From the NCBI GenBank assembly GCA_015680905.1, contig CM027377.1, positions 8,766,501-8,830,500 on the forward strand: a DNA stretch of 64,000 nt, read 5' to 3'. This DNA is from Coptis chinensis. Lineage: Eukaryota; Streptophyta; Magnoliopsida; Ranunculales; Ranunculaceae. Position numbers and translations under genes: made by a program. A model generated the notes under the pieces. The model was not told the origin of the DNA. It worked only from the letters and a program-made list of their open reading frames with translations, and made no database searches. Shown here in pieces: positions 24,865-50,220 of the stretch (position 1 is its first letter; the number at the start of each line of letters is the position of its first letter).

Positions 24865-25056
24865 TATAGTTTGTGATTCCGAATGAAATTTTAGAATTTT
24901 GCTTGGAATTTTAGTTTTTTGAAAAAATGAAATTTCAAATATAAAATCAAAATATTTGAAATTCTGAAATTATTTAAAATTTCAAATATAATAGGAGTCG
25001 AAATTTAATAAATTTCAAATTTTAGATTTGTCGGAATTTCAAAATTCCGAACTATA
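24865..25056 (+). mobile_element. hAT-like MITE, copy 1 (192 bp)
   Basis: It begins TATAGTTTGTGATTCCGAA and ends TTCCGAACTATA, with an exact 8-bp target duplication, GGAACATC (24857-24864 and 25057-25064). The interior is AT-rich with repeated 'gaaatttcaaat'. It matches the copy at 35127-35328 in reverse orientation along most of its length. An 8-bp duplication is typical of hAT elements. Confidence 0.85.
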
Positions 25057-25154
25057 GGAACATCATAGAGGGGGAGGCTCCTTCTATAATCCAATAGCTC
25101 ATGAAGTATAGTGGTGTAGACTGTAGAGCCTCCACCAACCTTTGTGAATTGTAA

Positions 25155-25273
25155 CCCACTATTGAGAGTTAATATGAAATGAGACGGAATAATCGGGAAC
25201 AAAAATCCAAATATTTAATAAATAGTCAAACCTCAAACCTTTAACTGTTGTTTATAATAGCACACACCATAAT
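25155..25273 (+). repeat. Direct repeat R1 flanking the DUF2921 pseudogene
   Basis: It starts 'cccactattgaga', continues 'ttaatatgaaatgaga', and ends near 'tttataatagca'. A second copy lies at 29032-29165 in the same orientation, 3877 bp away. The copies are diverged with small indels. Confidence 0.7.
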
Positions 25274-26240
25274 ACAAAATATCAGGATATGATAACCACT
25301 GATTTATGGATATGTATCGTAGATATATCCCCCTCTGTATGGATATATTACATTGGGGCATCTGCAAATATCGTAGATATATTAAGATATATCGATAAAT
25401 ATCAACAAATATCGTAAAATATCCCTCAACTGTGTGTGGGTATTGCTAACTGCAAATATCATAGATATATCATGATATATATATCACTAAAATATCAACA
25501 AATATCACTAAAATATCCACAAATTATCTATATTTTTTTTGAATGTGGTCATACTTTTAATATTTTCTTTGTACATATTTAAGATGATTATATGTCGTTA
25601 TAAAGTTATATTCAAAATTTCAAATATTTAAAAAGTCACACAAATTACTACACTCGTTTGTAGGATCTATGAGTTGGGTGACCCGGCTTTTGCTCAAAAC
25701 CCAAAACTACAGTGGTAACTATTCACTCCAAAAAAAAAAAAAAAAAAAAGTGAGAATTAGTGTTAGTAGCCCCCTATTGTTGAATCCTCCGATCCCCGAC
25801 TACTACACTGGTTGTAACAAAAAAGAAATATTACAAGGTGTTAATAGGACTACGTATTACAAATATTTAATCCAAATTATGCTGTAAATACAGGAAATAC
25901 AGAAAATAATAATAAATAAATACATAAATGAAAGAAAAATAAAACATACATCCTTTCGTTGTCACTACACACTTTGGAACAAAGTGGAAAAGCATTCTAG
26001 TAGTGAATTTAAGAAAAGGCAAGAAAGACAACAAAATGTTACGCCCATCAAAGAAAACCTAAGATGCTATCATCAACTAAAATAATTCCAGCAAGTTTGT
26101 GTTTTTGACAAAATCCAATGAAAATCTACGAAAGAATGGTGAAGATTATTGAACTCAGTAGTCATACAACAATTTCATTCTTCTCCAAAGAAGGCCAAAG
26201 AGAAAATATGGTTTATTCAGTAGTCATACATGCAACTTTT
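25274..26240. other. ATATCG-rich repeat and 3' flank, no gene seen
   Basis: 25274-25540 repeats 'aatatcgtagatatat' and 'aaatatcaacaaatatc' motifs on both strands. Similar sequence recurs at 28805-28940 and near 50 kb. The rest is AT-rich flank of the pseudogene downstream. Confidence 0.5.
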
Positions 26241-26333
26241 TGAAGTATACAAAATTATAAATACAAAGCCAATCCATTTTTTTCACACAATGTGAAGTTT
26301 ATTAAACTGTTTCCTTGTGCAATAAGCCAATAA

Positions 26334-28723
26334 CTAACCACTAGCAACTGGTACCTTCTCATAATCTGTGGACTGTTTAAATTTCGACGGAAGAATGCAA
26401 CAACCACTAAACCTCTGCTGCAAATAGATAAGAGTCGCAAACAGCAGACCACCACAGGGGATAATAACATCCCACTCAGTCGAGAAAAAATCCCCACCAT
26501 TAGCATAGATATATGATGCATCAAGATGAGGTGCATATCTGTGAGACCTATAAAGATCGTATGCATGAGGCAACAAGTGGATGAAAGTTATTCCAACATA
26601 GAATGTAGGACGAAGAGCTTTGTATTTTATGTTCAAAAATACATTAAGCAGTATTTGAGGCAGTAGAAAACCGTCGCGAAGCAACCCCGCATATTATCTT
26701 AGATCCACCCAAATTGAATGCCCATGGTAAACAGAAATACTTCCATATTTCCAAGGAGCCTCGTTATGATTGATCCACCAGTGCAACCCCGAAGCTACAA
26801 AAGCACCAATTAGATACAATGGTAGCAAAACAAATAGAGCTTTCTTTTCAGCGAGCAACAAACCCTTTTGGTCTCCATCCCCCAATTTTGAGGACCATGT
26901 CAGCTGAAGAAAACGAAACTGCAACAGAAATGCAACCATTGTGACTACTCTCACCAACACCTCATTCACCTCGAGCCATCCACCACTACCCATCACGATA
27001 TTTTGCCGGTTATGGTTTGTCTTGAACAAGGCCTCAAAGTTCAAAACCAAAGGGATCATCTGCCCTAGAGTAAGAATGGCAAGCATCACAAGAGAAATCG
27101 ATGGAAACAGGATTCTTCTTCACATGAAAGACCTGTAACCCGACAAAGATGCAGATAAGTGTATTAGAGATCAGAACCATACTGATCTCCAGATCCACCC
27201 TCCAGACAGATTCCGCAGCTTGAATTGTGGACAAGGAAACTGCAAACAACTGCAGTTTCTCAAAGTAAAATGGGTCCAACCACCTTCTTGTGCTTTCTAC
27301 AGTTCCCTTGATATACGATGAGCTCTTTGAATTTAACTGCCGGAACTATATGTTGATTTGAATCTCGCAATCCATCGAATGAAGATTTGATGTTTACACA
27401 AGCTTCCAGTTTCAGGATTATAGACGCCTTCTGCAGAAATATCAGTACATGTACTTATCAAGGAGGTTTTTTTTTAGAAAGGTGCACCACCGACATTGTA
27501 ATCAGGTGCCAAGCTTAAGCTATAGCTGAATTCAGAAGGCCCTTCAGGTGTTAGTGAATCACTTGAACAGATGACTCGGGTGTCACTGCATCAAATTCGA
27601 TGATAGGAACACCTTGCTTGTAAAACTGGTCACCCATGGACAGCGGTACTGAATAACCCCAAGACTGTGCACCTTTACTGTTTCTTACTCTCATATCAAA
27701 CTTCATGTCATATGAATACCCAGAAGGGTATATCACTCCCTTTTTTGCTGCTGTCTTCTTTGCACAAGACTTCACTACCCCGCCAGTCTTGGTGTACTCA
27801 TACTTCAGACCTGGAGACAGATAAATTCTATTCACAGGACTCTGGAACACAATTTTATCAAAATAACCTGATTCATTAGAGGTTTTGTTACTCCATATTT
27901 GCTCCACAACACTACTCCTGTTTGTAATAGTCATGATAGCAGGGAACCACACACTCAACCTGATCAAACAATCCCCAACGGAAGCGTTGGCCAAAGAGTC
28001 CCTATAATTTAAGAATCAACAAGCAACAATATGAAGTGGATTATAATCTCCATTCCAACGTCCTTCACCAACTAACATTGCGCTAGGAGCCAAGGCATCC
28101 CTATACACAGCATGGCTAGTGTTGGAAAATCAAATCAACAACCTCAACCTTTGCTCATCGGAACACTAAAGTTCACTAAAAGACATGAATTCAGGTAAAT
28201 CCCCAATGCTACTAGCAACAGGACTACAATTCTTAGTAGCATCACAATTACTTCCATACTCCAATTCAAACACACGAGACCACCAGTACAGTTCCGAACA
28301 TATACTTATCTGAGGTCCCAAACTAAGCATCGAATCTTTCACAACACCACCCCCTCCAGAAAACCCACTCTCACTATCATCCACAACAAGTGGATACTCA
28401 TAATTTCTAGGCGAAAACGTCAACATGGATATCGGTTCAAAATAATTCACACTATCACATACTCTTCCCCATCAATAAAACCTGTTTAAAAAACCAAAAA
28501 AGTACACTAAAACACACAATGCACAATGCAAACAAGTCCAAAATGAGAAAATAAGCAGACCCTTTTTCTTAAAAACGGAAAAGATTGTACCTTGTTCATG
28601 TTTGAATCCAAACTGATGAGTTTGCTGAGAAACTCCATTACAAGAGGTGCAAACAAGTGAAAATATGAGTAGAAGAAGAAGACTTGGAAGTAAGAGAAGA
28701 GATATTGTTTTTGAACATAGCAT
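26334..28723 (-). pseudogene. DUF2921 family membrane protein, disrupted
   Basis: On the minus strand the start at 28723 gives a good signal peptide (MLCSKTISLLLLPSLLLLL..). Then come DUF2921-type segments in order: NYFEPISMLTFSPRNYEYPL and GSNCDATKNCSPVAS (28450-28166); NASVGDCLIRLSVWFPA, SGYFDKIVFQSP and YPSGYSYDMKFDMRV (27994-27551); FEKLQLFAVSLSTIQAAESV (27270-27210); multi-pass membrane segments; and FLLPQILLNVFLNIKYKAL (near 26665) to the C-terminus at 26340. Damage is clear. The luminal region between signal peptide and NYFEPIS is missing. Stops and frame changes occur at 27280-27550. A frameshift follows KKNP near 27100, and an in-frame TAA follows WVDLR at about 26694. Members are large plant membrane proteins of poorly known function. 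Direct repeats flank this copy. Confidence 0.75.
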
Positions 28724-29031
28724 AATTCCTTTCCATTAGAGTTTGTTCGTCGGTTTGTAATAACTCTCCACTTTCTTCCCTCGCCACCAGCACCACCAAT
28801 TAATCCCAATTATATCCGAAAATATCATGATTAAAACAAAAACTTGTTATATCATCGAAATATCGCGATATATTCTCAAATATCGTCGATATTTACACTG
28901 GTATCTATCCTAATTAATATCTCGATATTTATATCACACAAGACTAGGCATTTCGGATTTTTTTTTTCTGTTTTTATTGATTGGGAAACATATTTTAAAT
29001 GAGATTAATGACTCTTTGATGCTGGCCGGAT

Positions 29032-29165
29032 CCCACTATTGAGACTTAATATGAAATGAGATGGAATTATCAGGAACCCAAATGCAAATATTTGTACCTT
29101 TCAATTTAGAAAGTAAATCGTCAAACCTTCAACTGTGTTTATAATAGCATACACAATCACAAAGT
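29032..29165 (+). repeat. Direct repeat R2
   Basis: Second copy of the sequence at 25155-25273, beginning 'cccactattgaga' and ending near 'tttataatagcatacaca'. It contains a short extra piece ('gtacctttcaatttagaaag') absent from R1. It lies about 545 bp upstream of the acyltransferase start. Confidence 0.7.
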
Positions 29166-29567
29166 GTCGGCTGAGCACTGAAGCCCATTCTTTTGGTATC
29201 TTCACCCCAAAAGTTTTTTTACCAAATTTGGTTATTTGGCACCTAGCCCAAAAATTTCTTTTCACACTAGTCTAGTGCACGTGTAAAAACACGTGTTGTG
29301 TTGTGTTGTATTTTCTCAATAGAAAAGGTCTTACAAATTGACCAAAAATATTAATTTAAGAGTGAATTTATCCTTATAGCCATGTTTGTCTAACTTTCCC
29401 CTAACATAATGGCCCACCAGTTTTGAAAATCTGTTTTAAAAACAAATTTTAAAAAATGAAATTACTGTTATACCTTTCTAAAAAACAATTTTTTTTTTTA
29501 AAAGTGAAATTACAATTTTGCCCCTAAAACGTACACCATCACTGTTACTCGACCCCCCACATTTTTC

Positions 29568-29577
29568 TATAAAATAA
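29568..29577 (+). promoter_or_regulatory. Probable TATA box of the BAHD gene
   Basis: TATAAAATAA lies 142 bp before the ATG at 29710. The leader would be about 110 nt. Support is motif and spacing only. Confidence 0.35.
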
Positions 29578-29709
29578 AGATAATTACAGGAACCAATTCA
29601 ATCAGAGGTTTCTGGGAAGTTTCTAGCATAGTACAAGAAGTCGTACAGTGGTATCACTGGTATGTCCACAACTTCACTTTTTTTCTAGGCCTTACAGTCT
29701 CTCTTTCTC

Positions 29710-31074
29710 ATGGCTCCAGTCCACACAGTGAAGGTCCTTGAGCAGTGTAGAGTAGCACCTCCAGCAGGTACAACTACTCAAACCACACTTCCTCTCACAT
29801 TTTTCGATCTACTTTGGATAACTACTCCATCTGTTGAACACCTTTTGTTCTATGACTTCCCACACTCAAAAAACCATTTCACTCGCAATGTGCTTCCCCT
29901 AATGAAACAGTCACTCTCCCTTACTCTTCAACAATTCTACCCTTTAGCTGGGAATCTCATATGGTCACAAGAACCAAACACCAAGCCCACCCTCAGGTAC
30001 ATGGACGGCGACTCGGTATCCTTAGCAGTCATAGAATGCCACGACGATTATGACCATCTAGTCTCAAATCATGCACGAGATGGACATACTTTTCATCCTC
30101 TTGTGCCTCGATTGGGAGCCTCAGATTCAATGACCCAAGTGTTGGCGCTGCAAGTAACACTGTTTCCACACTATGGTCTTTGTATAGGATTTACTGTACA
30201 CCATGGCGTTGCCGATGGAAGCACTGCCTTGCAGTTTATGAGATCTTGGTCTTCACTATGCAAATTCACTGATGAGTCGGAGAAAATCACCGTGTTTGCA
30301 CCATTCTACGATCGATCAGTAATTAAGGACAAGGATGGCCTGGAGAGTATTTACCTGAAAGATTTGAGACACTTCAAATGGCACCTCAAAACTTTCAAGG
30401 CTAGTGAAATTACTACAAATGGAGTTGACATGGTTCGAGTCACATTCATATTGAGTCGAACGCACATCAACAGGCTCAACCAATGGCTCGTACGTCTTGT
30501 ATGCGAGAAAAAAATACCACAGTTTTATTCGTCGACTTATGTGTTAGTATGCGCATACGTAATGGTATGTTTAGTTAAAGCGCGGCGTATTGATGAGAGA
30601 AAAAAGACCATACAAATTGCATTCCCAACAGGATGTAGAACTCGCTTGAACTATCCGATCCCCACGGCATATTTTGGTAATTGCATTGGTATATGTTGTA
30701 CACCAGCATTGAAATGTGACATGATCAAAGGGGAAGATGGATTTTTAGTTGCAGCTGAAGGGATTGGAAAAGCAATTGAGGACTTGGAAACTGGAGTCTT
30801 AAAAGGAGCTGAAAAATGGGTCAAGAATAACTTAATATGTGATATGTCAAATGAACGTGTCATGGTTGCTGGTACACTAAAGCTGAACTTCTATGAAACT
30901 GATTTTGGATGGGGAAGACCTAGAAAGAGTGAAGTGATATCTATGGAGAAAAAGGGTGCATTTTCACTTGGAGAAACTGGGGATGGAGACGGTGTGGAGG
31001 TGGGATTGGCTTTAAACAAGCACGAAATGGAAGCATTTTGTTATTTGTTTGATGCTGGTCTCAAATCTCAGTGA
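29710..31074 (+). CDS. BAHD acyltransferase (phenolic glucoside malonyltransferase-like)
   Basis: A single intact 454-residue exon. The catalytic HXXXD motif is H165-G-V-A-D169 in VHHGVADGS, and the structural DFGWG motif is residues 398-402 in ETDFGWGRP. The motif YFGNC (in TAYFGNCIG) marks the anthocyanin/flavonoid acyltransferase clade, whose members usually move malonyl or hydroxycinnamoyl groups from CoA onto sugar hydroxyls of flavonoid or other phenolic glucosides. The length fits the family (430-470). The N-terminal VKVLEQCRVAPP and LPLTFFDLLW are also typical. The protein should be cytosolic; no signal peptide is seen. Acyl donor and acceptor cannot be read from sequence. No intron is present, as in many members of this clade. 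An RNase H-like retroelement scrap follows the stop by ~200 bp. Confidence 0.95.
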   Translation: MAPVHTVKVLEQCRVAPPAGTTTQTTLPLTFFDLLWITTPSVEHLLFYDFPHSKNHFTRNVLPLMKQSLSLTLQQFYPLAGNLIWSQEPNTKPTLRYMDGDSVSLAVIECHDDYDHLVSNHARDGHTFHPLVPRLGASDSMTQVLALQVTLFPHYGLCIGFTVHHGVADGSTALQFMRSWSSLCKFTDESEKITVFAPFYDRSVIKDKDGLESIYLKDLRHFKWHLKTFKASEITTNGVDMVRVTFILSRTHINRLNQWLVRLVCEKKIPQFYSSTYVLVCAYVMVCLVKARRIDERKKTIQIAFPTGCRTRLNYPIPTAYFGNCIGICCTPALKCDMIKGEDGFLVAAEGIGKAIEDLETGVLKGAEKWVKNNLICDMSNERVMVAGTLKLNFYETDFGWGRPRKSEVISMEKKGAFSLGETGDGDGVEVGLALNKHEMEAFCYLFDAGLKSQ

Positions 31075-31272
31075 ACCACATTAGGTGCTACCCACAAACC
31101 ATTTTACCAATTCGTTGGTGCAGGACACAGTAGACACAACCTCTGATCCAAAAGGGGAAAAGGCACAAGCTATCCGAGGAGGACTAGACCTGGCTCGGGG
31201 TTTGCAGATCCGATATCTCACCATTTTGACGGACTGGAAAATTTTAGTTGAAATTTTGGAATAAGTTTATCT

Positions 31273-31488
31273 TGGAGAGCCACCTCAGTAGCACATGATA
31301 TTTATGTTTGTACTTCATTGTTGGATGAATGTAATTTTCATTTTATTCCTAGAGATTCTAATTTTGTTGTTCGTGCACTAGCTAGTAGGGGTAGGCGAGC
31401 TCCTCTTTTTTTTAGTTTGAACCATGCTACTGCAGGGTCTCTGATTCAGTTATGTGTTGGTGTAAACTCTGTAGGAAGCTCTTCCTAA
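31273..31488 (+). pseudogene. RNase H-like C-terminal fragment
   Basis: A 71-codon open stretch encodes VCTSLLDECNFHFIPRDSNF, then VVRALASRGRRAPLFF, ending SVGSSS and a TAA. The F-P-R-D-x-N-F-V-x-x-A-L pattern is the last helix region of the RVT_3 RNase H domain of plant LINEs. Nothing recognisable lies upstream except the BAHD gene. It is a retroelement 3' relic. Confidence 0.5.
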
Positions 31489-32528
31489 ATTTTTGAAAGT
31501 GTTCACCTTAAAGAGGAAAAAAAAAAAAGTTGGGAATAATGGGAATCCACTACATTGGATAACTAAAATGTGTGATGCTATGGGTGACAATGTGCTGATT
31601 TCGAATTATTTCTTGTTACGAGTGAAGATCTATCAGTATTATTTTCTTTATATATTTTTCTTTCACGGCTTAGGCAATTTTAAAAGGATGCAGCCACACA
31701 ATGACAACATTAAATGACTAAAATGCCTCTATAATAGAGCTACTGAATAACAGAGACTGAAGTGAACTAGAATAAGGGTCTCCGTCGCAGTTCTATTATC
31801 TAACAAAGTGAAATGCTTATTACCACTTGACAACGCAGTATGTACAACTAGCAAGCACCCTTCATACAGCTAACGGCTTCATACTAGCAACTAGCCGTAG
31901 CAATAAGAGTCGCACAGAATTATTTGCTAAAAGAAAATGAATGTCGATCTCATTTTTGTAAATTGTCCAAAAAATTCATACGGCTTTCCCACATTCCCAG
32001 GGGGAGGAAACCTGCAATACAGTGTAACCCACTTGGCAACCGTAAGAGTCTTTCTGAGCCCCTTCCATTAAGGTCTTCAAAGACAACCGAAGAAACGGAC
32101 AAAAAGGACTTGAGAAATCTGAAACTTCCAAGTTACAATTTCCAACCATAACAAACTAACCTGGGGGTTGTGGTATTATTAACTATGAACAGAAATTCGA
32201 ACAATTTACTTCAGACCGAACTTATTTTTACTGAAATTTGATAAATACAGTTCCCGTTAGCAGATCAAGCACATGAACTCCATGCATTGACATCTTCAGA
32301 TATCAAATCTGGCACTAATGACATATCATAACATATGACCAATTAACCAAAACATTCTCATATTAAAACCGACAGAAAGATCAAAACATAATGAGTAACC
32401 ATTAACTAATATCGAAAGGACGACAACCAACTAATATCCTCAACACACTTATGTTCACTCTACTTAGTGCAACATTCAAATCTTATGTGCGTCCGAGTCT
32501 TTTTTTGCACATTATATAAAAAGATTTT
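31489..32528. other. Intergenic and 3' flank of the GR-RBP gene
   Basis: Noncoding DNA. The part nearest 32528 is presumably the 3' untranslated region of the minus-strand RNA-binding protein gene. No other feature is seen. Confidence 0.45.
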
Positions 32529-34416: not shown

Positions 34417-34739
34417 AACGGAACCTTCAAACACATCAGCAAACTGATTAATAACATTATCATAACAACATCCCAAAGTCTCAATTTTTTTACTAATAAC
34501 ATGTCATTCCTTATTATATAACTTATAAATTAACCATACAGACAAAAAAATCTAACCTTTTTAATGAAATCATAATATAAACACATGAAATGAAATCACT
34601 AAACACTTATAAACTAGTGCTTACTATAGATCAGAAACTGGAATATAGTAAATGAAAAGTTGGGTTTGAGATTTATACCTTGGTGGAGAAGTTCCTCAGA
34701 ATGAATGAATGTATGGCTACTGCTTTTTCTCTCTCTTAT

Positions 34740-34748
34740 AAACCCTAA
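34740..34748 (+). promoter_or_regulatory. Telo-box near the GR-RBP promoter
   Basis: AAACCCTAA lies directly beside a TTATAAG-like TATA (minus strand reading) about 325 bp before the start codon. Telo-boxes are common at plant genes of translation and RNA processing. The position close to the inferred transcription start fits a promoter role. Confidence 0.4.
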
Positions 34749-35118: not shown

Positions 35119-35126
35119 CTTCTAAC

Positions 35127-35328
35127 CATAGTTTGGAATTTCGGAATTCTCAAAATTTCGATAAATTTAAAAATCGAAATTTATTAAATTTCAACTCCTA
35201 TTATATTTGGAATTTCAGATGATTTTCGGAATTTTAGATATTTTGACTCTATATTCAGAATTCTAATTTTTTGAAAAATTGAAATTTCAAACAGAATTCC
35301 ACAGTTTCGTTCGGAATCACGAACTATG
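35127..35328 (-). mobile_element. hAT-like MITE, copy 2 (202 bp)
   Basis: It begins CATAGTTTGGAATTTCGG and ends ATCACGAACTATG, with an exact 8-bp target duplication, CTTCTAAC (35119-35126 and 35329-35336). Its reverse complement aligns with the copy at 24865-25056, including 'aaatataataggagt' and 'gaaatttaataaatttc'. Confidence 0.88.
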
Positions 35329-35686
35329 CTTCTAACACTCAAACTATCATCAGCAGTGACTGACTTTCAGGGGTGTCAAATTGTCAATTTTTCAATAATA
35401 AACTTAAACAGGTCCAACAAATATGTAGGTGCAAAAAAAAATAGTTAAGTTTAAGTTTGGAGAGTTGGGGGTAAATAATCAGTAATACTACACCGATCCA
35501 CTTATTTGACCTACTATTTGAACCCATTGATGTGTCAAAAGTTATAATTATTGATTTGCATAGAAATACGTGTCCCGTGTGTATTATAAATTTGTAAAGC
35601 AAACCAACCTCATCCAAATATTGAGTTGGGCAATAGTCGCAAAAGATGAGATAAAAATTCACGTCTGTTGAGCTACCAACAATGCA

Positions 35687-35760
35687 GCTGGAATAGCTCA
35701 GTTGGCTAGAGCGTGTGGCTGTTAACCACAAGGTCGGAGGTTCGACCCCTTCTTCTAGCG
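35687..35760 (+). tRNA. tRNA-Asn (anticodon GUU)
   Basis: A 74-nt cloverleaf. The acceptor stem GCTGGAA pairs with TTCTAGC (one G-U pair), with discriminator G. Box A is TAGCTCAGTTGG. The anticodon arm is GTGGC-TGTTAAC-style with GTT at 35721-35723. The T arm is GGAGG-TTCGACC-CCTTC with one G-U pair. Box B is GGTTCGACCCC. There is no intron and no encoded CCA. A CAA motif just upstream ('accaacaat') matches plant tRNA initiation sites. The short T run of a Pol III terminator lies near 35776. Confidence 0.95.
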
Positions 35761-35920
35761 AAAAAATAATTTATTATTTTACTTTAACATTTTCGTTTGG
35801 CCCTTGCACCCATAATGCATTTTCCTAGCCACTCATTCTCTCTAACATCCAAACAGCCCCTTAAAACTTCCCCTCATAAATCCCACAAAATTCGTCAATC
35901 TCGAAACTTTGAAACACCCA

Positions 35921-37153
35921 ATGTCTCCAAACCCAAAACCCACAAGCATTCTCGACTCAATTGGTGAAGAAATAGTGAGAATCATAACACCAGTTTCAAT
36001 ATGCATGTTTTTAGTAGTACTTCTTGTAACCATTTTAAACACTGACTCATCTTCATCATCAATCACATCAATAGCAACAATAGCATATAATGAAAACACT
36101 TCAGATACATTTTGGGATAAATTAACAGGTGCCCTTTTAAATTCACTAGTGTTTGTGGTTGTTATTACAGTTATAACATTCATACTAGTCTTTTTATTCT
36201 ATATAGGATGTACTAAGTTTCTTAAATATTACATGGGCTTTTCTTCGTTTGTTGTATTGGGTTTTATGGGTGGTGAGATTGCTGTTATTTTGGTTCAAAA
36301 GTTTAGTGTACCTATTGATTGTGTTACATTTTTGGTTTTGTTGTTTAACTTTGCTGTTGTCGGGGTGATGTCCATATTTATGTCGAAAATGGCTATACTG
36401 ATTACACAAAGTTATTTGGTGGTTATTGGGATGTTGGTTGCTTATTGGTTTACGCTTTTACCTGAATGGACTACTTGGGCACTTTTGGTTGCTATGGCAT
36501 TGTATGATCTTGCTGCTGTTTTGTTACCTGGTGGACCTTTGAGGTTATTGGTTGAACTCGCAATATCGAGGGATGAAGAGATACCGGCTTTGGTTTATGA
36601 GGCTCGGCCTATAACAAATAACAATGTAGGTCCAATGCAGCGTGTAGTTGAGAGGAGATCGTGGAAGGGAAGGCGGAGTGCTGATCCTGATACTGCTGAG
36701 AGTTCAAATGCAAGTTCGAGTCTAGGAGTGTTGTTATCTTCTGAGGATCGGCAAAATGAGACAAGGGTTGTTATTGCTCAAGAGAGTCAAGTTTCTGGAG
36801 ATTCTGAGTTGTCTGCGCCTTTGATTCCACAAGAAATGGTTCAGAGTGAAAGTTGGCCAATGGACGGTATTGGATTAGGTTCGTCGGGTGCAATCAAGCT
36901 TGGTTTGGGCGATTTTATCTTCTATAGCGTGTTGGTTGGTAGAGCAGCGATGTACGACTTTATGACTGTTTATGCTTGTTATCTAGCTATTATAGCTGGT
37001 CTTGGCATCACTCTGATGCTTCTTGCATTCTATCAGAAGGCGTTGCCAGCTCTTCCTGTATCTATATTATTAGGGGTGGTGTTCTATTTCTTGACTCGAA
37101 TTTTGTTAGAAATTTTTGTTGTACAATGTTCAGTTAATCTGTTTATGTTCTAA
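35921..37153 (+). CDS. Presenilin-like protein (gamma-secretase catalytic subunit homologue)
   Basis: An intact intronless frame of 410 residues. The ATG at 35921 (MSPNPKPTSILDS) is the first in-frame methionine and fits plant presenilins. Both catalytic aspartates are present: Asp196 in ALYDLAAVLLP (TM6) and Asp331 in the GLGD motif (KLGLGDFIFYS, TM7). The C-terminal PALP motif is at about 376-379. Nine hydrophobic segments can be seen. A long polar, Ser/Glu-rich loop (about residues 220-310) separates TM6 and TM7, as in the family. Presenilins are intramembrane aspartyl proteases of the endomembrane system; plant functions are only partly known. Lack of introns matches plant presenilin genes. 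The gene converges on DCL2, with 411 bp between stop codons. Confidence 0.96.
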   Translation: MSPNPKPTSILDSIGEEIVRIITPVSICMFLVVLLVTILNTDSSSSSITSIATIAYNENTSDTFWDKLTGALLNSLVFVVVITVITFILVFLFYIGCTKFLKYYMGFSSFVVLGFMGGEIAVILVQKFSVPIDCVTFLVLLFNFAVVGVMSIFMSKMAILITQSYLVVIGMLVAYWFTLLPEWTTWALLVAMALYDLAAVLLPGGPLRLLVELAISRDEEIPALVYEARPITNNNVGPMQRVVERRSWKGRRSADPDTAESSNASSSLGVLLSSEDRQNETRVVIAQESQVSGDSELSAPLIPQEMVQSESWPMDGIGLGSSGAIKLGLGDFIFYSVLVGRAAMYDFMTVYACYLAIIAGLGITLMLLAFYQKALPALPVSILLGVVFYFLTRILLEIFVVQCSVNLFMF

Positions 37154-37564: not shown

Positions 37565-40500
37565 TTATTTTGTCGTGCTTGCATTCAATTTCTCCAACAC
37601 AGTTTTGGCAGCTAATTTCTTCGCTGTCTTTTTATTCATCCCAGTGCGCGTGTCAGTGTATGAAACACCATTTGCTTCGACTGTTATTGTAATGGAAGCT
37701 TTCCCGTCCACATAAGATACACTCGTTTTATTCTCGTATGAATCCCGCTGGCATAATTCACCAAGCTCCTTTACTGGATGGAGCTTCATAGTATCTAGCG
37801 TAGCCAATGGTTCTAAAATAGGTCTTATGCAGTTCCAAACAGTCTCAATACTATATCCAGAATCAACCAAAATTGCCCCAGCCAAAGATTCAATGATATC
37901 TCCGAGCACCTGTTGAGCCATGAAAAAACTCCAAGTTAATAAAACTCAGAGTTTGCAAGTTATATAAATCAGATAAAAATTTGAAAAAGCATCTGCAAAA
38001 TCTGACAATTTTTATGCAGAATAGAATAACATGCAAGATAGAGCATGTAATATACCAATAGCAGCACTTTACATGGTCAGACGTCCGTTCCATTTTAGTC
38101 AAGTAGATAGATAGCATGTCTTAAATAATATATTAGAAAACACTTTTGCAATGTTAATGAAGAAAGTTCCTAATATATTATCAGGTTCAATGGCAAATTA
38201 TTATTAAGAAAAATAACTGAGTACAGATGGCATACCTTTGGTACAGTAGTCTCAGATTCCCAGCCATTGGTAGACTGCAGTGATAATTTTCCAAAACTCT
38301 CAACGAAATTTTTGATCTGCTCAAGAAGTAAAGGGGATGTATGGAGAATATGTTTGTGCAGCTCTGCCTTGATAGCAGCAAATGCGTAGCAATCATTGTT
38401 TACGGCAGAAGACCTAAGGTCAGTTAATTGTCCAGGCGACATTCCAGGATATAAATTGTACATATAGGAGGTTATAAGAAAATCCAAAACAGAGTCCCCG
38501 AGAAATTCCAAGCGCTGAGCAAAGGAAGAGAACCTTTTCAGATACAAATAAACCTTCAGGCAACCATTGCTATAATTCTATGCATATCCACAGATATAAA
38601 ATCTCTCAATTATTTTTAAGATACGAATTGTAAAGTTAAAAAAAAACATTTAAAGACACATGGGCTTAGGAAGAAGTAGATTTTACATTTTTAAAACGTT
38701 CATGCCAAAAGAATGTAAAGAGCGGGAATAGTAATGGTCAATTACAATAATATAAATATTTTAAATTCATTTTACTGTATTTATTTATCGTCTCTGCCAA
38801 GATCAAACAGGTACATATAACACACTATCTGCAGTTTTATCCAATAGTTCTCACTTCTCAGAGAGTAATCCATATAATTTAGCCATTACATCCCAATCTG
38901 TTTTGTTCAGTCTCACAAAAGTACAAACCCTCAACTCGAACAAGAAAAAGCAATATAAAATTTCCTCAACTCTGTTACAATGATCATCAGAACCAATCAT
39001 TTCCAAGCACTATCCATTAGGAAGGCCTGTCCTGTAGTAGAGATTTAAAGGTTTACCTGCTTCTTTAATAAAATTCTATTCCCAAACTCATGTAACAACG
39101 ATTCTTCTCAACACTATTTGCATATTTCTAAGATAGTAAAGTAGACATGAAAAATACAAACAACATAATCAATCTTAAGCTGGTGACATACTAAGTGAAA
39201 TTGATAAGTTTAGCTGTGACAGACAATTGGGTTCTAACTTGAGTGTATTTTAAAATGAACAAAATAAGAACCTGTTGCAAATAGATTTGACTTGGCTTGG
39301 TTTTCTAAAATTAGTGATAATTCACACTCTTTGAACATGACCAACTATTTTAATTTTTTGTCCAGGCTATAACTTTGGAAACCAAAGGTTTGACAATAAT
39401 CAAAGAGATTTAAGTTTCACGAGGTAACTCAAGCCTCATGCATTGTCTAATGGCGTGAATCAAATAAAATTGAGCAGTACATTTTTCTTAAGAAATAGGT
39501 GATAGCAACCAATGTAATAAGTTCAAACAAAAACAAAACAAAACAAAAAAAAACACCTGATAGCATCTTGAGATCCCTGGGAGTTGGTAGGAACCATGAG
39601 TTAAAGCTTCAAGCAATAGAGATTGGTCACGAAATCTGTAATCCAGCAAGGATTCAAGTTCTACGACATTAATGTGCCTCTCTGGTTGCATTGCGAACTG
39701 CACTCCATTGGAAATCTCTTCGGAAAAATCAACTTTCAAACCAAGCCAGTCTAGAAAATGTAACGCTGCCGGTTCACCTCCTGCGGTGAGATAGGCACCT
39801 ATCAGTCCTTCAACAACATCAGCAATTACTTTAGTCTTCATGTGCCTTGATCCCATGACATAGAGCTGTCCCGAAGTGCTGAATGAAGCTTCAACCAACC
39901 CAGAAAGTCCAAGGTCACCAGGAACAACCCAACACTTCGGATCAAAACACTCATAACGAACAAAACCCTGACATTGACAAATGAGTCACTACGCAGGCAG
40001 TATAATAATCACTATCTCATCGACATACAAGCTACTAATAAAACAATAGACAACTCCATTGGATCTCCTATTCGGTATTATGTAATTATATGTTGCACAG
40101 TACTGGTATAGTTGACGGAGTCGGATTTTGACTCCAGTACAACGTTGCATTTTTCACTAACCCAAAAAGGACAATTATCAACTCGACATTAAGTTCAGAT
40201 TAGATGATATGTAATTCAATTGGAAGCTGGAGCATAGTATAAGATAATAGTGAACGAACAACTGGAAACTAAGAAAATAGATGACTAGATGTGTTGCACA
40301 TGAGTCGTGGACAAGTCTGATACAAACCCTAACAATAAGTTGCATATTACATACAAAATAGATACACTCTACTTTGAAACGTACAGATAAACATTATCTC
40401 TCACAACAGTTACCAAGCAATTTTGTCTTACACAGAACTCTGTAATGGTACAGTCATTTTATCTATCAAGAAAAACAGCAAGAGTAAGATAACAGTGTTG

Positions 40501-43500
40501 AGGAAATGGGGAAACATAGTACCTGTAATTTCCGTTTGCATCCAAGCTTGCAAAGAGCACTGTTAGATACCATTCTTTCTCTGTGACCACTAAGTAGACC
40601 CTCATGATGATTTTTATTCCTTTTGAATAACTGCTGACCAACAGCATACTTTAGGAAAGAGTCTCCAAGTGTCTCTAGTGATTCCAGAGAAAATTCCTCC
40701 TGACATTTCTTTGTTGTAATAGCTTCAAGAATCTATCATCACCATATGAGTGGCATGAACAAAAAGTTAAGTTTTTACTCGTTATAAATGTTTGCCGCAT
40801 TACATTCCACTAACAAGCACTACAGAATATTTCCGAGGAAGGAAAAACATGGGTACCTTCATGGTTGGAATCTGAATATTGCTAACAAGATGACCAGTTT
40901 GTAGTTTTTTCACATGTAGAGCAAGAACTATGGACTCGATACGATGCATGATTGATGGAACCAAAGAGTAAGACTTCAGAGTACCCAGGGAAATGCAAGA
41001 CATAATTATCTTGCAGAGTTCCGGGGGCAATTCTACGTAAGCAGCGGTGGATTCTGCAGAAAGACACTGGATTAGGCAAGGAGTACCGAGTATAATAAGT
41101 GTAAATCTGTAAGAACAGTTGTTTCATGTGTAATATAAGCACAGGAAACCTTAAAAAGGTAGTTGTTTCAGTCTGAATTTTCAATACATTTGTTTAAGCT
41201 TCAACAATTGTTTCAACAATTTGTTTAACTAGCCATCTAATTTCAAGGATTTAATGTAGAAAAACTTAGAACTTATGGTTAATCGAGCTTATCATTTTAT
41301 TACTTGGCATTTCTTCTATCCTAACGACTTCAATTCGCAAAGTGTTGGATCACCATCCATTTTCCTACATGAAATTACGTTTTACCAATCACAATTTAAT
41401 TAAGTCAGTAATGCACAAGATCAGTAGTGATATAACAAACAAAATGATTAATATTACCTTTCTCTTTTGGATTACTCTGCCTCCTAAGACAATTTTGCAC
41501 TGTAAAGACATGCCTCCCTCTAAGCAGAGTTTGACCTTCATGTCGCAGCTTGATACCATGCCTGCCATTCATACTAGAAGTTGGATTTCGTTTTCCTTCT
41601 CTTTTACTTTTAAAATACACAACAAAGAGCAGATTATATATATGATGTTTATAACACAAACAAAGTGACATTAGAAAACAAAGGATAATGATCATTACTA
41701 TGCGACGGACAGATTGCTAACATGGTCTATATGACCATTCATACCCTCTATCATCTTAGTTGTCAACCCACCACGTACAAACAATCATGGCTCTGATTTA
41801 TAATGTGTGTGTGTTCATGGGGCCAGATTAATGTAACACCTTGTAGTGACAACCTTCTTGAGATAAAAGCTTACTGTGTAAGAAGATGACCCACTACCAT
41901 AACGATCATCTCTATGTGGATTACCTGAAGGCATGTGCTAAAGGGGGCACACATGCATAAGTCTTCCAAACATCAGTATCACACAGGTACATATCAAACA
42001 AGTGCAGTACGCATAGAGTGATTACAAACGATTTCCATACACTATTGAGTACTCACTTAGATTGATAATATTCCTTATATCTAAGAGCTTCTCCCTTCGA
42101 CTTCATAACAGAATTTCCATCAAGCCCATCTAAGGATCCACTGATGCAGTAAACGTATCCATTATGAGGTGTGACGACTAATGAGTTCATAAGCATGCCC
42201 CTACAAATCTCCTTATCTTTGGTGTGTACATAATTCAAACAACTCTTTTCAGGGCAATGACTCCTGTGCCAGTTCAATGTAAGTAAAGAACTAATACAAT
42301 CCCAATGTATAGTTGGAGATTTCCCATCTGCATTAGTAGATGGTAGTAGTAAATAGCTGATCCTTGGAACGGTGTCATTTTGCTGGTGCTTGTCCAATGC
42401 ATCAGCAAACCTATTCCATTTCTGGTTAATAAGTAACCTTAAAAGAGCAACCTGGAACTTTGTAGCAACAGAAACCTGGAAGCAAATATGATAATAATAA
42501 CAAAATAATGATCTGAAGTGGTTCATATTGTGATAACCTTAATTCACATCATGCATTGCGTCAAGAGTAGTTTACCCGTTCAGGACTAAGAAGAATGGTA
42601 CCAGCATAAACTACGTTTACCCCTACTGAACCCTTTTTGGCAAATAACTCAAAATCCATATGCGTGAAATCATTTCCCAAATTACTCTTTACAGCAAGTA
42701 TAATATTTTCAAAGGAAACATCATCGTCAAAATTTTGCTGCATTTCGATTGTATAGCAATGGTAGATCTCCTCAATGTGAGATGGCCAGTTGAAAACCAG
42801 TTCTCCTGGATAATAACTTTCTTGTTCCTCATAAGATATATCCCCTGTATGATAAACAAATGAAACGTATAAGTTAAACAGTATAAAATCTGACACTTGC
42901 AACTTTGAAGTATTCTGAATGGAATGAAACCTTTTTCCCCAGATAACTTAATGAAAACATCTAAAGTAAGGAAACACGGAAAAAATCGCAAGCAAGAAAA
43001 TTAGAAAAATAATATTACGTTCAAAAGGATTGATCAAAAAGGTTCACTATTCAATCTTCTCGGTAATTTAGAAAAGTATAATCTGAGGCCACGACATTCT
43101 AAAAATTGGCAAAAATAAATATTTCAACACAGGCAATATGATAGGAGAGTCATCAAGGATTATGTTCCAACTTCTAAGAGATTCAAATTTACTCTAGGAC
43201 ATGTCAGCCCAACGACAACGCACTTTATTTGTCCCACAACAAATATATTCAACTAGATACCATCACAGCACACTAGAATTTCTCTTACCCCTCTACAATG
43301 GATAAGAACCTTTTCGAACAAAAGACATAAATTCAGGAAAAAGCCTTAAACCTTGAGAGTGATAACTAAAATTATAACATGAGAGCCATTAGCAGAAAAT
43401 AATGAAACAGTATAGTTACCTAAATCATTTGCATAAGTATCGTCTTCCACGGACTCTGGTATCAGATTATCATTAAGAGCACCAATTTCATGAAGTTTTT

Positions 43501-46500
43501 TGCATGCCTCAAGGCACACAAGTTTCTTGAGTATGTCTTTTGGTCCTTGCACACAAACAGTCTCTAAAGGGCAGCTTTTTGGAAGATGTAACGTACAAAC
43601 CTTAGACTCCTCATCAAAAATAAACCTTGGTGTAGGATTAAAATACCTATAAACAAGAAGATTCGGCTCAGTAAGCGATGTCAAACAGTTAGAGGAAATA
43701 ACATATTCCTAACAACCAAATAGTAAAGCATGAAGAAGAAGAGTTTGAGAACAAACCCATCAGAAGGAAGTTGTGAACAATAATAGTAAATTGTAGCAAC
43801 ACTAGAACTAAGAGATACTAATGCACCAGTAGTTTCAACAAGATAAAACTCCTCATCATGCATTTCACTTTTACGAGGTGCGCATGGGAAAGAAGAATAG
43901 CGTAAAGATTCCTCCCGCATAATTTCTCCACTGGCAAGATAGCTATTTACCCTTGAGAACTCAGAGGCGTCCCCACTAGAACATGCAAATAACAAGAGAT
44001 GGTTAGAAGAGTGTGAGAGCATAGATTAGTTTCTAGGTTTTAACATATCAATCCATCCATATCTTGTAGTGTTATAGTTTTTATTGGTAAATGTAGAATC
44101 ATTTTGAAATTACTTCAAATTGTCAAAAAACAAACTTCGCACCTTCATTTCTTACCCACACTACACCAAAACAATATTTTAAAAAAAAAACAAATAACTG
44201 CATCTAAAATTTAAAATGGAAAAAGGATTCAGTCAACATATAGTAGGTCTACAGACAGGATATGAAGGTGAGTGAAGGAAACGTCACCTTGGGATAATCA
44301 ATAAATAGTCTGACCCCTCCATTCTAGCTCGGCCCCTTGACTGTATAAAGCTGCAAACTGTTTTTGATGGATCAAATCTAATGACCAAGTTGCAACTCTG
44401 AACATCGAGACCCTCCTCAAGAATCTCTGTTGCGACAATAATGTTCACCTGTATGCGTCCTCCATATGTTATCCAGCTAAAAGTAAAAGTTAACTATAAA
44501 GAAGCAAATAAAAAGGTGACAGTGAAGCTCAAAACAGCAACGTATAATCAAATCATATTTGATTTGATATTGATAATAATCAACCACAACTAATATTGAC
44601 AGCAAAATAACACAATCATCATTAATGCTACAAGCCTACAACTTTTACTATGATAACAAAGTCAGAAAAAAAAAATTAAATACATACAGCACCATTGCGA
44701 AATGCGTCAATTATATTGAACTGCTCGTTTCTTTTTTGAGTATTCAGTCCTGCACGATTTCCCGCCATATAGGTCACAGACCAACCATTTGGTAGCATAA
44801 CTTCACTAAGCAAAGACTGGAGAACTATGGCAGTGATGACCCTTTCCACAAATATAATACATCTCAAATGCTTTGCCTCTCTGTTTACAGCAGATAGATA
44901 AACAAAAAAATTAAACTTAAACATAAAAAACAAAAAGGAAATGTACAGTCTCCAATGCGGTTGTTCATATCGAACAAACGACATGCAGTGAAGTTCTGAT
45001 TTTTAGCAGGGATGATCTTGGCATCACGCAACTATGATGCAAATCATCATACCATAAAGATAATGATTCAAAATTCCTAAAGGTACCCAAATATGACTGA
45101 AGATGTTAATAATTTACACATAATCGACGGCCAAAAGATTCAGAACATTATTACTGGTTACATAATTTTACATTGTTAGAAATTTCTGAACAAACTGATC
45201 GTTTTGAATGATGATCTTTACGATTTCGAGGTCATCCCAACCAAAAATGTCAGCTTAAATGTGTAGCAATCCATCTTGCATACCCGACACATAAACATAA
45301 CAATCCATATTGTTCTTAGATTGCCATTTGTAGCAATCATCACAGTATTAACACAAGCAGAAAATATTTTCCAACCTGTACTCCATAAGAGATTCAATCA
45401 GGCAGTTAACTCTTGAGGTTAGGAGGCCAGCATCCAAATTTGCATTGAGATCATTACCAATGCACCAATTTGAACCTACGTGATGAAAGAATCATGAAAC
45501 AAAACAGATAACAGAAAATAAATTAACAAGCCAAACACCATGCAAATACAGCTTAAAGCTAAACCTTAACTTATATACTTATATATCGAGATTACTGCAA
45601 CAAAACAAAGGACTAGGGGGACACAGGTCAAGGCAAGGATCTAAAGTACCAGATGGTATGTATCCTGATATAACATCAAGAAATGCTTCACTAAAACTTC
45701 TCACGTTCTTCCTACTAGCACCACCATCCTTTGGCCCCCAGAAATATACATCAGTTTCAGTACACGATAACGCCTTAGAAGCCTGTCCAGATTTTTTTTT
45801 TAAAAAAAAAACGGAGGGGGGGACAGCTTTAGACACCTGAGAATATAACTAACGACGAACATCAACAACAAAATATTTATTTGATTAAAACCATTGTTCA
45901 TATACCTGGCAAGCCGACCAAACACCAAGATCCTTCATACAAAACAAAAAAGTTTCACATAATCTTAATATCTTCTTCACTGAAGAATCCTCTGAAGCAT
46001 TTTTTAGCTTTTGAACATACTGAAACAAATTCATCAATAATAAGATTTTTTACACAGAAATATATTAGAAACCATTTCATGGAAATAGGAATCACATTCT
46101 TTTCTTTAGATAACATTGAGAAGAGAAACAAGACTTATGCAGCTTACTCCAGTGATCAATATCTCTGTCACTGTGTACATTATGCAGCACCACATTGATA
46201 ACTAAGAAATTATCCTACAGCAGTATGTATTATAACATAGTATATTTTTGTCCATCACAATGTGGGGTACGGAGATATGAATGGATTCTTAATTGGTTAC
46301 TAAATTTGTCAACAGAACTTTTAAGAGGGAAATATTAAAGCTGTAACAGCGATGACTAGTACGTTAACATGGCAAGCATCTACACGTAGGTGCAAATGTG
46401 GACACTTATGTACCATTAAGTTCACATGTGTTTACAGACATTCAGAATGATGATCTATTGGTTCTGATACATAGCTTTTTCAGAAGGCGAAGTCTGTTCT

Positions 46501-49452
46501 CCAGGCAGGACTTTAAGGTTAAACCTGTCTATTGCACATTTTAAATTGAATGTGATTGTACTTCTCAAAAAGGAAAAAACAATATGCGATTCAATTTACT
46601 TAGGTAAGTTGACTATAAAACACAAACTTAACAATAAATCAAAATTTCCGCATTCAAAATACATATACTACAACGAGAGTTGAAAATCACACTAAATGAT
46701 ATTTCCATAAATTCATATTCATAATGATTTAAAGATGACCAATAGATAAAGTTTCTTATTATTTAAAAAAAACCTATCAACAACTTCACTCAGAAGACAG
46801 TGTATGGTAAACTGAAGCCTTTCCAAAGGCCAAAAAGTAATAAGATAGTGATGGTAAAGATGGATATGAAAATACATGCCTTCTAAGATGGATATGAAAA
46901 TCATTCCAAAAACATATTATAGAAAATGGTCATTCTTTGACCCCACTTCCTAGCACACTGGATGATGCTTAGAACAACAGTGATGCTACAATACCACAAT
47001 TCATCCATTCATGCGAATTATAAAATAGGAGACAGCTAACTGATTCATTATTGGAAGTAACGTTGTAGATAAGTCTAATACCCTCGTTCTCAGTTTCACC
47101 AATTCATTTTCCAGCCTCAGAGCCAAAGCATTTGGTAAATCTATACGTTTGTACAGCTTCAACTTTGGAGTAGAAATTGGTATGAACTCAGCCAACACGG
47201 ATTCATTCACAACTGTGAATACCTTCATACGAGAAATCAAGTCAATGTAGCATTACATATCAAATGCACAAGTGAATGAGCAAAAATGGACATAATATAT
47301 TGATGCACACCAAACTGACAATATATACAAGACAACGACATCTGTGATACGGTTTTTACTAGTATTTAGTGCTCAAGGGATAAATATCCAAGAAGAGGTC
47401 AATACACTCCTCAATGTACAACTGACCTTTGAATTCAATAGATTCTCAAATTCAAGAATCTTTTTTGCATAAGCTTCGGGTGACTTTTCACCTATACCAA
47501 AAGAAAATATCAGTACACATGCTACAAAAGAAATAAAAAAGTATTCTCAAGTCAGAGAGACTGTTGTTTACGAGTAGACTCTACTTCTACCCTGACAAAA
47601 ATAAGTTTCAGGTTATAGAAAATATCTGTAGGAAGGAAAAAATATTAAAAATGAATTACAGCAGTTTTCTATCTATTTATCATTACAACTGTAGTGAAAA
47701 AAAATCAAACCTCTTAGGGTCTACCACTCTGGTACAATGTCAAGTGTCGTGAAGATCAGTGCTCTAAAATCTCAACTTGTAGACAGGAGGAACAACAATG
47801 TATAATAAAGTAGATCATGATTCAAACACACTAACACATCTGACCACACAAACGAGAGTGGGCAACATCCACAAACATATGGCCACAGAATATGGAATTG
47901 CACTGACGATATATAAAAAGTTTACTCAATAATCCTAGGCTGGGATAAAATCATAACATGGCAGCATTTGAAGGAGCAGCATTAGACCATATGACGAGAA
48001 AACTACTAAAAAAATTGATAAAGTACACATAAAACAAGGACTACCTTTAGACTTGATGATGCATGCCGTCATGCCAAATATTCTAGGTAAATGTGTCGGA
48101 GTAGAATACAATTGCGGGTGATAGAACTCCTAATAACACAGAAAATTGCTTTTATAAAATCACTACTTCATATGAATGCACATATAAACGATCTCATGTT
48201 GATGTGGTTCGACACAACTAATGAATTACAGCCACATTATACTCCTGTCAGCTCAGATTGTTCCTTTAGTCAAATGGATGTGAGCAAAATGATGCATGCA
48301 GGACGAGACAATCAAAATTACCCACCTTTAAAATGCAAGCATAATCGCTGTTGCCTTTTGCATTGTGGCATTCATCAAATATTAACAGATTTATGATGTC
48401 TAGCTTGAAAAACCCATGCCTTAAGGCATCAAGCAAAATTCGAGGTGTCATAACCAAAACCTGCAGGGATACAAAACAGAGTTTGAATGTTAAATAAATA
48501 AATAAATAACATGTAAAGTGAAGTGTATCTATAGATTATAGTGCTCAGTATGCATGACAAGGTTGAACAGGAATAAATAATTTTCCTTTTTGTTTCGGTT
48601 CTAAACTAATTCTCACCTCATGACTGTCAATCTCATCTTTCCAAGTGTTGGCATCCCAGAAATCTACTCCCATTTCTCCCCAGTATTTTCCCACTTTCAA
48701 GTCAGTGTGCATGCTCACAACTTCAGCTTGCTAAACAACCAAGTAAATGAGAACATACATACATACTCAGATTGTGATTAAAACAAAAACATGCACTTTA
48801 TGTTTACTTCATATGCTTGGGTTGCCACTTGAGCACTTCTGTAGTTCAGTTAAATGGATGGTGTCATGGTGACAAAGACGAGGAGTGACATGCAATAACA
48901 ATTCAGTTATTTTCAACGAAACATTAACAGTTTTAGAGATTCTAGTCAAGGGCTCAAAGTTTACCCAGAGGTCCAGGCCCAACGTCTGGTGTATTGGGCT
49001 TGGCCTGCAAAACACATAAGCGGCGAGTATAGGAAAAGTTCGAGTGAACTCTAGAGTTAGAGAAAGAGATGTATACTTGTTTGACCAGATGAACAGTAGG
49101 AACCATGAAAACAGCAATAAAAGGAGAAGGCTTTCGAAGTTGATAAGCATAAGCTCGAATCAACATGATCGCAATCAACGTCTTTCCAGAACCTGTTTCC
49201 AAGTAAACGATCGTGTTCCGTTGCATAGCTTTCTCTAAGGCATCTAGTTGATAACTGTTGCACCAAACAAACAAATAAACAACACTTTTTCATCCATTAA
49301 TACAAAGTGAACAAATATATGAAGCAAACCAACCTTCGAGCGAAACTTTGAGGATCGATAATCTCGTTTGGTGACATCAGTTTGTGTGGCTTCTTCCAAG
49401 ACTCTTGGTTGTTGCTGTTGTTGTCAACAACGTTGATGATTCTTTTCTTCAT
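37565..49452 (-). CDS. DCL2: Endoribonuclease Dicer homologue 2 (DCL2)
   Basis: I placed 22 exons on the minus strand (start 49452, stop 37565): 49452-49334, 49254-49077, 48730-48617, 48460-48326, 48129-48045, 47491-47427, 47222-47082, 46019-45906, 45782-45650, 45475-45376, 44880-44688, 44448-44288, 43975-43757, 43646-43420, 42844-42576, 42475-42057, 41561-41458, 41053-40857, 40732-40523, 39967-39557, 38514-38236, 37909-37565. All are GT..AG and in phase, giving 1405 residues (Arabidopsis DCL2 is 1388). In order: helicase with GSGKT (61-65) and DECH (166-169), helicase C with QSRGRARM (495-502), dimerisation domain, PAZ (PHNGYVYC), RNase IIIa (E1011, D1015, D1111, E1114), RNase IIIb (E1201, D1205, D1295, E1298) and a short C-terminal dsRNA-binding-like tail. 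All eight catalytic acids are present. DCL2 makes 22-nt siRNAs in antiviral and transitive silencing. Confidence 0.96.
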
Positions 49453-49558
49453 GACTCAAACAAAGAGAATTTTATCAAGTTTTGGTTTTCGAGGGTGTGA
49501 CTTGGAACGTCTCTTCACTCTGAACTAAAAGTACGTACTCGTTGGAAATAAGCGTCAC

Positions 49559-49570
49559 TTATATATATTT
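49559..49570 (-). promoter_or_regulatory. Probable TATA box of DCL2
   Basis: On the minus strand TATATATAAG lies about 110 bp before the start codon, which would give a leader of about 80 nt. Support is motif and spacing only. Confidence 0.4.
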
Positions 49571-49996
49571 ATGGAAGATTGCGATGTACACTTCCACAAA
49601 AATGCAAAAGCCGCGTCACTTGGAAATGAATATTTGCTTTAAGTGGGCCTCTTCATTTTTAAGAAAAATGAATCTTTATTGAATCGGCTGATTATCCAAC
49701 TCTTTACATTCTTGTGGAAGTATAAAAAAAAGAGTAAAAAAAACGTGTTCTCACATTTATCTTTACAGAATGAAAAGGACGTGAACAGATATAGATATTC
49801 AGTGGGACCTCATATATCTTGGTTACTAATAAGTCATCAACAGAGATTCTTTTCATCATAGAGAAGGCTGTCAAGTGTCAACAAACAATATATACTGTTA
49901 ACGATTTGAGGACACCTGCCAAATATATCACTCAGCCTTCTACCCGAGCGAGTGCATGATGGGCAAGAGCAATCTGAATTTCTGAACAAATGGCCG
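49571..49996. other. DCL2 upstream flank, no gene seen
   Basis: AT-rich noncoding DNA between the DCL2 promoter and the nested MITE cluster. Confidence 0.4.
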
Positions 49997-50041
49997 AAAA
50001 TATCACCGATATATATCGGTTTTTGGATATAGTAGTATACG

Positions 50042-50220
50042 CATAGTTTAAGATTTCAGAATTTTTGGAATTCCGATAAATTCAAAAACTGGAATTCCGG
50101 CTTTTATTCTGCTATATTCCGAATACATTTCAAAATTCATGTTTTTTTTATTCTTAATATAGAATTCCAAATTTATCAAAAACTGAAATATTGGGTGGAA
50201 TTCTAAAATCACAAACTATG
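50042..50220 (+). mobile_element. hAT-like MITE, copy 3 (179 bp), nested
   Basis: It begins CATAGTTTAAGATTTCAG and ends AAAATCACAAACTATG. The flanks AGTATACG (50034-50041) and GGTATACG (50221-50228) match at 7 of 8 positions, as expected of an aged 8-bp target duplication. Its ends and interior ('ggaattccgataaatt', 'gaattccaaatttatc') match the copies at 24865 and 35127. Confidence 0.8.

Follow-up and report, generated by a model that had tools for sequence, protein, structure and literature searches.

Short non-coding elements of Coptis chinensis as probable hAT MITEs that carry the two ends of a larger BED-DUF659 transposon

In this report, we examine three short elements (W1, W2 and W3) in a 64,000-nucleotide stretch of the Coptis chinensis genome (GenBank assembly GCA_015680905.1, contig CM027377.1, positions 8,766,501 to 8,830,500, forward strand), the whole of which is called the window below. 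A reading of the sequence alone had proposed them as a single three-copy, hAT-like family of miniature inverted-repeat transposable elements (MITEs). Our analysis indicates that they are very probably non-coding hAT MITEs of two related subfamilies, A (W1 and W2) and B (W3), which carry the left and right ends of a larger BED-DUF659-Dimer_Tnp_hAT transposon and are moved in trans. Judging from the end comparisons, each MITE of ~180-200 bp would be essentially a left end joined to a right end (~60-100 bp each), the larger transposon being represented by an element designated Y.

All three window elements have YATAGTT ends and are flanked by 8-bp duplications, two of them exact and one agreeing at 7 of 8 positions, so the coordinates, ends and duplications first given for W1, W2 and W3 are all borne out (Table 1). 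W1 and W2 are one element type in opposite orientation. The ends are indeed common to all three elements, and a common interior holds for W1 and W2; it fails for W3, whose interior differs, and the one family of the sequence-only reading gives way to two subfamilies. W2 folds into a hairpin with a z-score of -5.5 (0/200 shuffles fold equally well) and W3 into one with a z-score of -3.6 (2/200).

The genome searched with W2 and W3 comprises 935.6 Mb in 116 contigs, including C1-C9 of 85-125 Mb each. W2 gave 847 first-look candidates, of which the best 40 were scored, yielding 41 matches, mostly end to end; W3 gave 366 candidates and, from the best 40, 40 matches. Copies sampled in this way, as the 40 top-scoring per query, are biased towards query-like, less decayed ones. 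W1 was not among the W2 matches and was added, and one W2 match (C9:82994241) was excluded from the duplication counts despite an exact duplication, giving 41 rows for A. The excluded match lies in a locus (L056, C9:82994100-82994850) where two opposed A-type MITEs stand ~85 bp apart, one with the exact duplication CATGTAGC.

Lengths have their mode at 201 bp in A and 191 bp in B. The consensus sequences, built from 40/41 A rows and 33/40 B rows, contain 65% and 63% AT, respectively, and both have CATAG at both ends. Mean divergence from the consensus is 10.5% for A (40 copies) and 14.3% for B (33 copies), with W1 at 19.8% (the highest among the A copies used), W2 at 11.9% and W3 at 14.5%. Consensus A matches W2 at 88% across 202 bp and W1, on the reverse strand, at 81% across 187 bp; only the first 55 bp of W3 pass an E-value of 0.001 against it, at 82%, subfamily B having ends mainly common to A and a different interior. 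Transition rates in the A and B copies are 20-29% at CpG positions, 17-23% at other C/G and 3-5% at A/T. Furthermore, genome-wide matches to a degenerate end pattern (CATAGTTYRNRATTYCGR) number 923, with 462 in forward and 461 in reverse orientation, against 0+3 for a control read backwards; these matches are ends rather than copies, and decayed ends are missed. The earlier suggestion of a high-copy family is thereby upheld, and the elements are short, AT-rich, non-coding and high-copy, as MITEs are, ~200 bp being too short for a transposase.

Target-site duplications provide the evidence for transposition. For the 42 copies sampled first, W1-W3 among them, boundaries were set from the ends alone, and 40 copies were usable after two (L032 and L053) failed the end criterion; 8-bp duplications were exact in 23/40 and had at most one mismatch in 30/40. 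Pairing flanks from different copies gave 0/1560 exact and 1/1560 with one mismatch, and no exact duplication of 7 or 9 bp was found among the 40 copies; these controls exclude a chance origin of the 8-bp duplications. Because the duplications vary between sites and measure 8 bp, the elements are real insertions, as had been claimed. In the full set, at most one mismatch was found in 33/41 A and 22/40 B copies. Four pairs of B copies have both flanks in common and are segmental duplicates; four B rows (L043, L052, L090 and L094) were removed on this account, and L041 and L055, with 26 bp of one flank in common, were kept. At distinct sites, duplications with at most one mismatch number 33/41 in A (29 exact) and 20/36 in B (14 exact), or 53 of 77 overall, 43 of them exact. 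That the elements are not transposons but AT-rich, hairpin-forming sequence spread by chance or segmental duplication could appeal to their composition and folding and to the four duplicated pairs, yet it has next to no probability: we regard it as refuted by the statistics of the site-specific duplications, and the excess of end matches over the control (923 to 3), the defined ends and the unrelated flanks at other sites also contradict it.

Among the 53 good duplications there is a tendency towards G-T-T-n-n-A-A-C: position 2 is T in 34 of them, position 7 is A in 32, and 19 have both; against a background of 0.33 for T or A, the binomial p is 3e-6 for T2 and 4e-5 for A7. The pattern nTnnnnAn, which has been described for duplications of Hermes (PMC2803484) and for those of hobo, where it is taken to mark the Ac family (PMC8961557), is the target pattern of the Ac/hobo/Hermes group and is present here as a bias, not a rule.

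Longer relatives connect the MITEs to coding sequence. Among the end matches listed, all on C1, one opposed pair lies 591 bp apart (L126) between duplications that agree at 7/8 (CCTAGAGA/CCTAGATA). Its left 62 bp are 92% identical to the right end of A (63 columns) and its right 55 bp 84% identical to the left end of A. With the L126 interior as query, 33 matches were obtained at 29 candidate places, and 20 loci were read. Five more elements with MITE-type ends and exact 8-bp duplications were recognized (L128, 590 bp; L129, 568 bp; L135, 658 bp; L138, 779 bp; L140, 729 bp). In a further locus, L130, the two ends are present at a distance of 534 bp, with no duplication found within the limit of the script, and the loci L133, L134, L136 and L141 showed no end pair. 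A pair of matches 6.4 kb apart on C2, considered as an autonomous element, is a mid-size relative (L131, L132 and L147; C2:37817905-37824655) split by an antisense insertion and bounded by the exact outer duplication GGTATAAC; the insert is called long interspersed nuclear element-like from reverse-transcriptase open reading frames, judged by eye.

Five hits of the same search (L142-L146) are alike for up to ~1.6 kb upstream of their right end, which is CATAGTTCACGATTCCGAAA in 4/5, and the alike stretches contain open reading frames. Extension of L144 and L145 gave the elements Y and X. Y measures 5893 bp (C6:39140476-39146368, minus strand), is flanked on both sides by the exact 8-bp duplication GTTCTAAT, and has the left end CAATGTTCACGATTTCG and the right end CATAGTTCACGATTCCG. 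X lies ~25 kb from Y in opposite orientation and is 96.6% identical to it across 4405 bp, with no left end seen. Along Y, reading-frame pieces match first zf-BED (PF02892, 2.2e-7), then DUF659 (PF04937, 8.3e-34) and finally Dimer_Tnp_hAT (PF05699, 4.7e-10), the last part of DUF659 falling in the next piece (1.6e-6, below the Pfam cut-off). A transposase exon piece found nothing in PDB at E <= 1, and the transposase pieces had no match in NCBIfam. A BED finger and the C-terminal dimerisation domain of hAT transposases are thus both encoded in Y. hAT elements are defined by short terminal inverted repeats starting Y-A-N-N-G, and A, B and Y (CAATG left, CATAG right) all have such starts; the view that a start other than CAGGG is remarkable in itself is unsupported as worded. 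The left end of Y starts CAATGTT, as do the ends of Tag1, a hAT element of Arabidopsis.

The ends of the MITEs and of Y correspond in a specific manner. Over the first 60 bp, ungapped, matches number 45 for A-left/Y-right, 47 for A-right/Y-left, 52 for B-left/Y-right and 44 for B-right/Y-left, and each of these four alignment scores was reached by 0/1000 dinucleotide shuffles; the other four end combinations give 22-27 of 60. Since the corresponding ends match, the two dissimilar ends are both retained in the MITEs and stand in their proper relation, which is the expectation for derivatives that arose by internal deletion, and the comparisons with L126 and Y point to a longer coding element from which the ends derive. 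Moreover, the MITEs match the ends of this longer element, not its interior, which removes the concern that they might be internal pieces of it. With Y, a hAT of autonomous type with the same termini, as the sequence-only reading had asked for, has been found, with the proviso that Y has in-frame stops and is a relative rather than the proven parent, and its domains, taken with the lean of the duplications to nTnnnnAn, sustain the hAT-like assignment. Duplications of 8 bp alone would be insufficient to define hAT, and P-element and Novosib MITEs are listed in plants (PMC7385995); an origin in another 8-bp superfamily (P element, Merlin or Novosib type), with an accidental likeness to a hAT element, is nevertheless highly improbable given ~60 bp of end-specific homology to a zf-BED/DUF659/Dimer_Tnp_hAT element and the same nTnnnnAn lean.

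The palindrome GGAATTCC is a candidate transposase-binding repeat in these ends. All four of its occurrences in Y fall within 120 bp of the ends; the shorter CGGAATT/AATTCCG has 8 sites at the ends and 2 in the rest of Y, and for the loose half-site these counts are 8 and 12. The window has two occurrences of GGAATTCC, each of them inside a MITE; the loose half-site is present 30 times within W1-W3 and 117 times outside them. Counting a palindrome twice, GRAATT/AATTYC half-sites number 17 in the 201 bp of consensus A (2000 mononucleotide shuffles: mean 0.4, maximum 4) and 11 in consensus B (mean 0.4, maximum 5). The BED domain of Hermes is described as binding quasi-palindromic subterminal repeats, and Tag1 as requiring ~100 bp from each end (PMC10368747). 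The Herves transposase is reported to bind the subterminal motif CG/AATTCAT, and for Tag1, with the motifs AAACCC and TGACCC, transposase affinities differ between distinct subterminal motifs (PMC3143072). Two such ends joined into an element of 200 bp would fit a minimal hAT transposon.

Several observations weigh against this interpretation. Non-corresponding ends also score partly above shuffles (left/left scores are reached by 22 of 1000 shuffles in A and 13 in B, right/right by 0) because of the inverted repeats themselves, and the case for end-specificity is therefore how far the corresponding ends exceed the others. The number of strict motifs per copy ranges from 2 to 11 in A and from 0 to 9 in B, with none in 5/40 B copies. 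Copies lacking a duplication, which the earlier reading had named as counter-evidence, do occur as a minority: no duplication with at most one mismatch is present at 8/41 A and 16/36 B sites (24/77 distinct sites). Mis-set ends explain some of these failures: if the ends are picked together with the duplication, a choice biased toward finding duplications, the mismatches in L035, L051 and L055 come to 0, 1 and 1, respectively. In Y, in-frame stops stand between otherwise continuous coding stretches, and this copy may be inactive. Movement of the MITEs is deduced, not seen directly. Finally, Y is a relative and not a proven parent of the MITEs, because its left end starts CAATGTT where the MITEs have CATAGTT and because A is closer to L126 (92% over 63 columns) than to Y (84% over 62).

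These last differences are also what an alternative within hAT would draw on, namely that a lineage other than Y mobilised the MITEs and that what Y has in common with them is no more than old ends. A PF05699 search of the genome gave 1546 candidates, of which 150 were scored and 30 loci read with 1.5-kb flanks, a coverage that itself leaves room for such a lineage. No MITE end pairs were present at these 30 other hAT loci, although the 1.5-kb flanks would mostly not span both ends, no end match to the MITE consensus was better than E 0.024, and 13/21 of the boundaries displayed were CCCTA-type. The comparison is a weak control because the flanks were 1.5 kb; taking both sides together, we consider mobilisation by another lineage unlikely.

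For derivation from Y-type elements, the following course can be envisaged. Internal deletion of longer elements would leave two dissimilar ends, a step supported by the end-specific homology and by the 568-779-bp elements. Transposase supplied in trans would bind the clustered CGGAATTCCG-type subterminal repeats via its BED finger, as we infer from the clustering of the motif and from the papers on Hermes, Herves and Tag1. It would presumably cut at the YATAGTT ends and insert at staggered 8-bp sites leaning to nTnnnnAn, giving rise to the duplications and the bias that are observed. Copies would then decay mostly via transitions at C and G, a pattern evident in the sampled copies that would fit cytosine methylation in several contexts as its cause. 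Tentatively, and with more doubt than confidence, we suggest that a lineage of BED-DUF659 hATs whose ends are CATAGTT/CAATGTT was streamlined to near-minimal elements of ~200 bp, hardly more than cleavage ends and a palindromic CGGAATTCCG binding-site array, out-multiplying its source by keeping, and in A enriching, the sites.

Table 1. MITEs of the window and their target-site duplications (positions within the window)
Feature	Positions	Strand	Sequence or ends	Remarks
W1 left target duplication	24857..24864		GGAACATC	
MITE W1	24865..25056	- (reverse relative to W2)	TATAGTTTG / CCGAACTATA	subfamily A, 192 bp
W1 right target duplication	25057..25064		GGAACATC	exact
W2 left target duplication	35119..35126		CTTCTAAC	
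MITE W2	35127..35328	+	CATAGTTTG / CACGAACTATG	subfamily A, 202 bp
W2 right target duplication	35329..35336		CTTCTAAC	exact
W3 left target duplication	50034..50041		AGTATACG	
MITE W3	50042..50220	+	CATAGTTTAAGATT / AATCACAAACTATG	subfamily B, 179 bp
W3 right target duplication	50221..50228		GGTATACG	7/8 vs AGTATACG

The window itself contains a fragment of a different hAT transposase at 13735-14508 (-), with Dimer_Tnp_hAT (PF05699) and hAT-like RNase-H (PF14372) domains. It was rejected as a source of the MITEs, as it is not enclosed by any pair of MITE-type ends that have a matching duplication; the one loose candidate around it, 11938-17040, has 1 mismatch per end and an AT-only duplication with 2 mismatches.

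The gene content of the window comprises parts of a Dicer-like gene (RNase III and DEAD), a presenilin, a member of transferase family PF02458 and DUF2921, a set that accords with a flowering-plant genome. Both W2 and W3 lie within ~1 kb of coding sequence, presenilin-type near W2 and Dicer-like near W3, and effects of the MITEs on these neighbouring genes may be possible. Just downstream of W2, at 35687-37153 (+), are a tRNA (35687-35760) and a presenilin encoded in a single open reading frame of 435 aa. The RNase III and DEAD-helicase pieces of the Dicer-like gene span 38170-49289 (-), with W3 ~0.75 kb past the upstream end of the helicase frame. Additionally, frames at 61706-63136 (-) and 59668-60306 (-) correspond to an RVT_2 (Copia) type reverse transcriptase and an RVT_3/RNase H-like product, and frames at 21362-21791 (-) with repeated STSHIYTTSYISTSYI-like peptide units suggest a tandem repeat.

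A and B are well-supported further families of an ordinary, known kind, the plant hAT MITEs. A likely close comparison is hATpin, reportedly, from the titles of Moreno-Vazquez et al. 2005 and Menzel et al. 2012, MITE-like plant hAT elements with highly stable secondary structures; on that basis, hATpin and W2/W3 have strong folding in common. For carrot, 3637 copies of hAT MITEs are described, with a largest family of 217 (PMC8227079), and for sugar beet 4562 copies in 28 families (PMC12804786). BniHAT-1 and BniHAT-2 of Brassica nigra, with 434 and 331 intact copies, resemble A and B, by their description, in being high-copy, AT-rich hAT MITEs with 8-bp duplications, and differ in being longer, at 673 and 666 bp (PMC7385995). 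MITEs are said often to have very limited similarity to potential autonomous elements (PMC3660474); here, two abundant subfamilies are tied to a source-type transposon in their own genome by end-specific homology, duplications and protein domains, and a candidate binding site is offered for a plant BED-DUF659 hAT transposase. Tag1 parallels the proposed mechanism in that its transposase recognises subterminal motifs, although these (AAACCC/TGACCC) are unlike CGGAATTCCG, whereas the CG/AATTCAT motif of Herves, an insect hAT, resembles CGGAATTC here (PMC3143072). Hermes, likewise an insect hAT, is similar by description to A and B in its nTnnnnAn 8-bp duplications and BED-bound subterminal repeats. 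Hermes and Herves, however, are animal elements, whereas A, B and Y belong to a plant.

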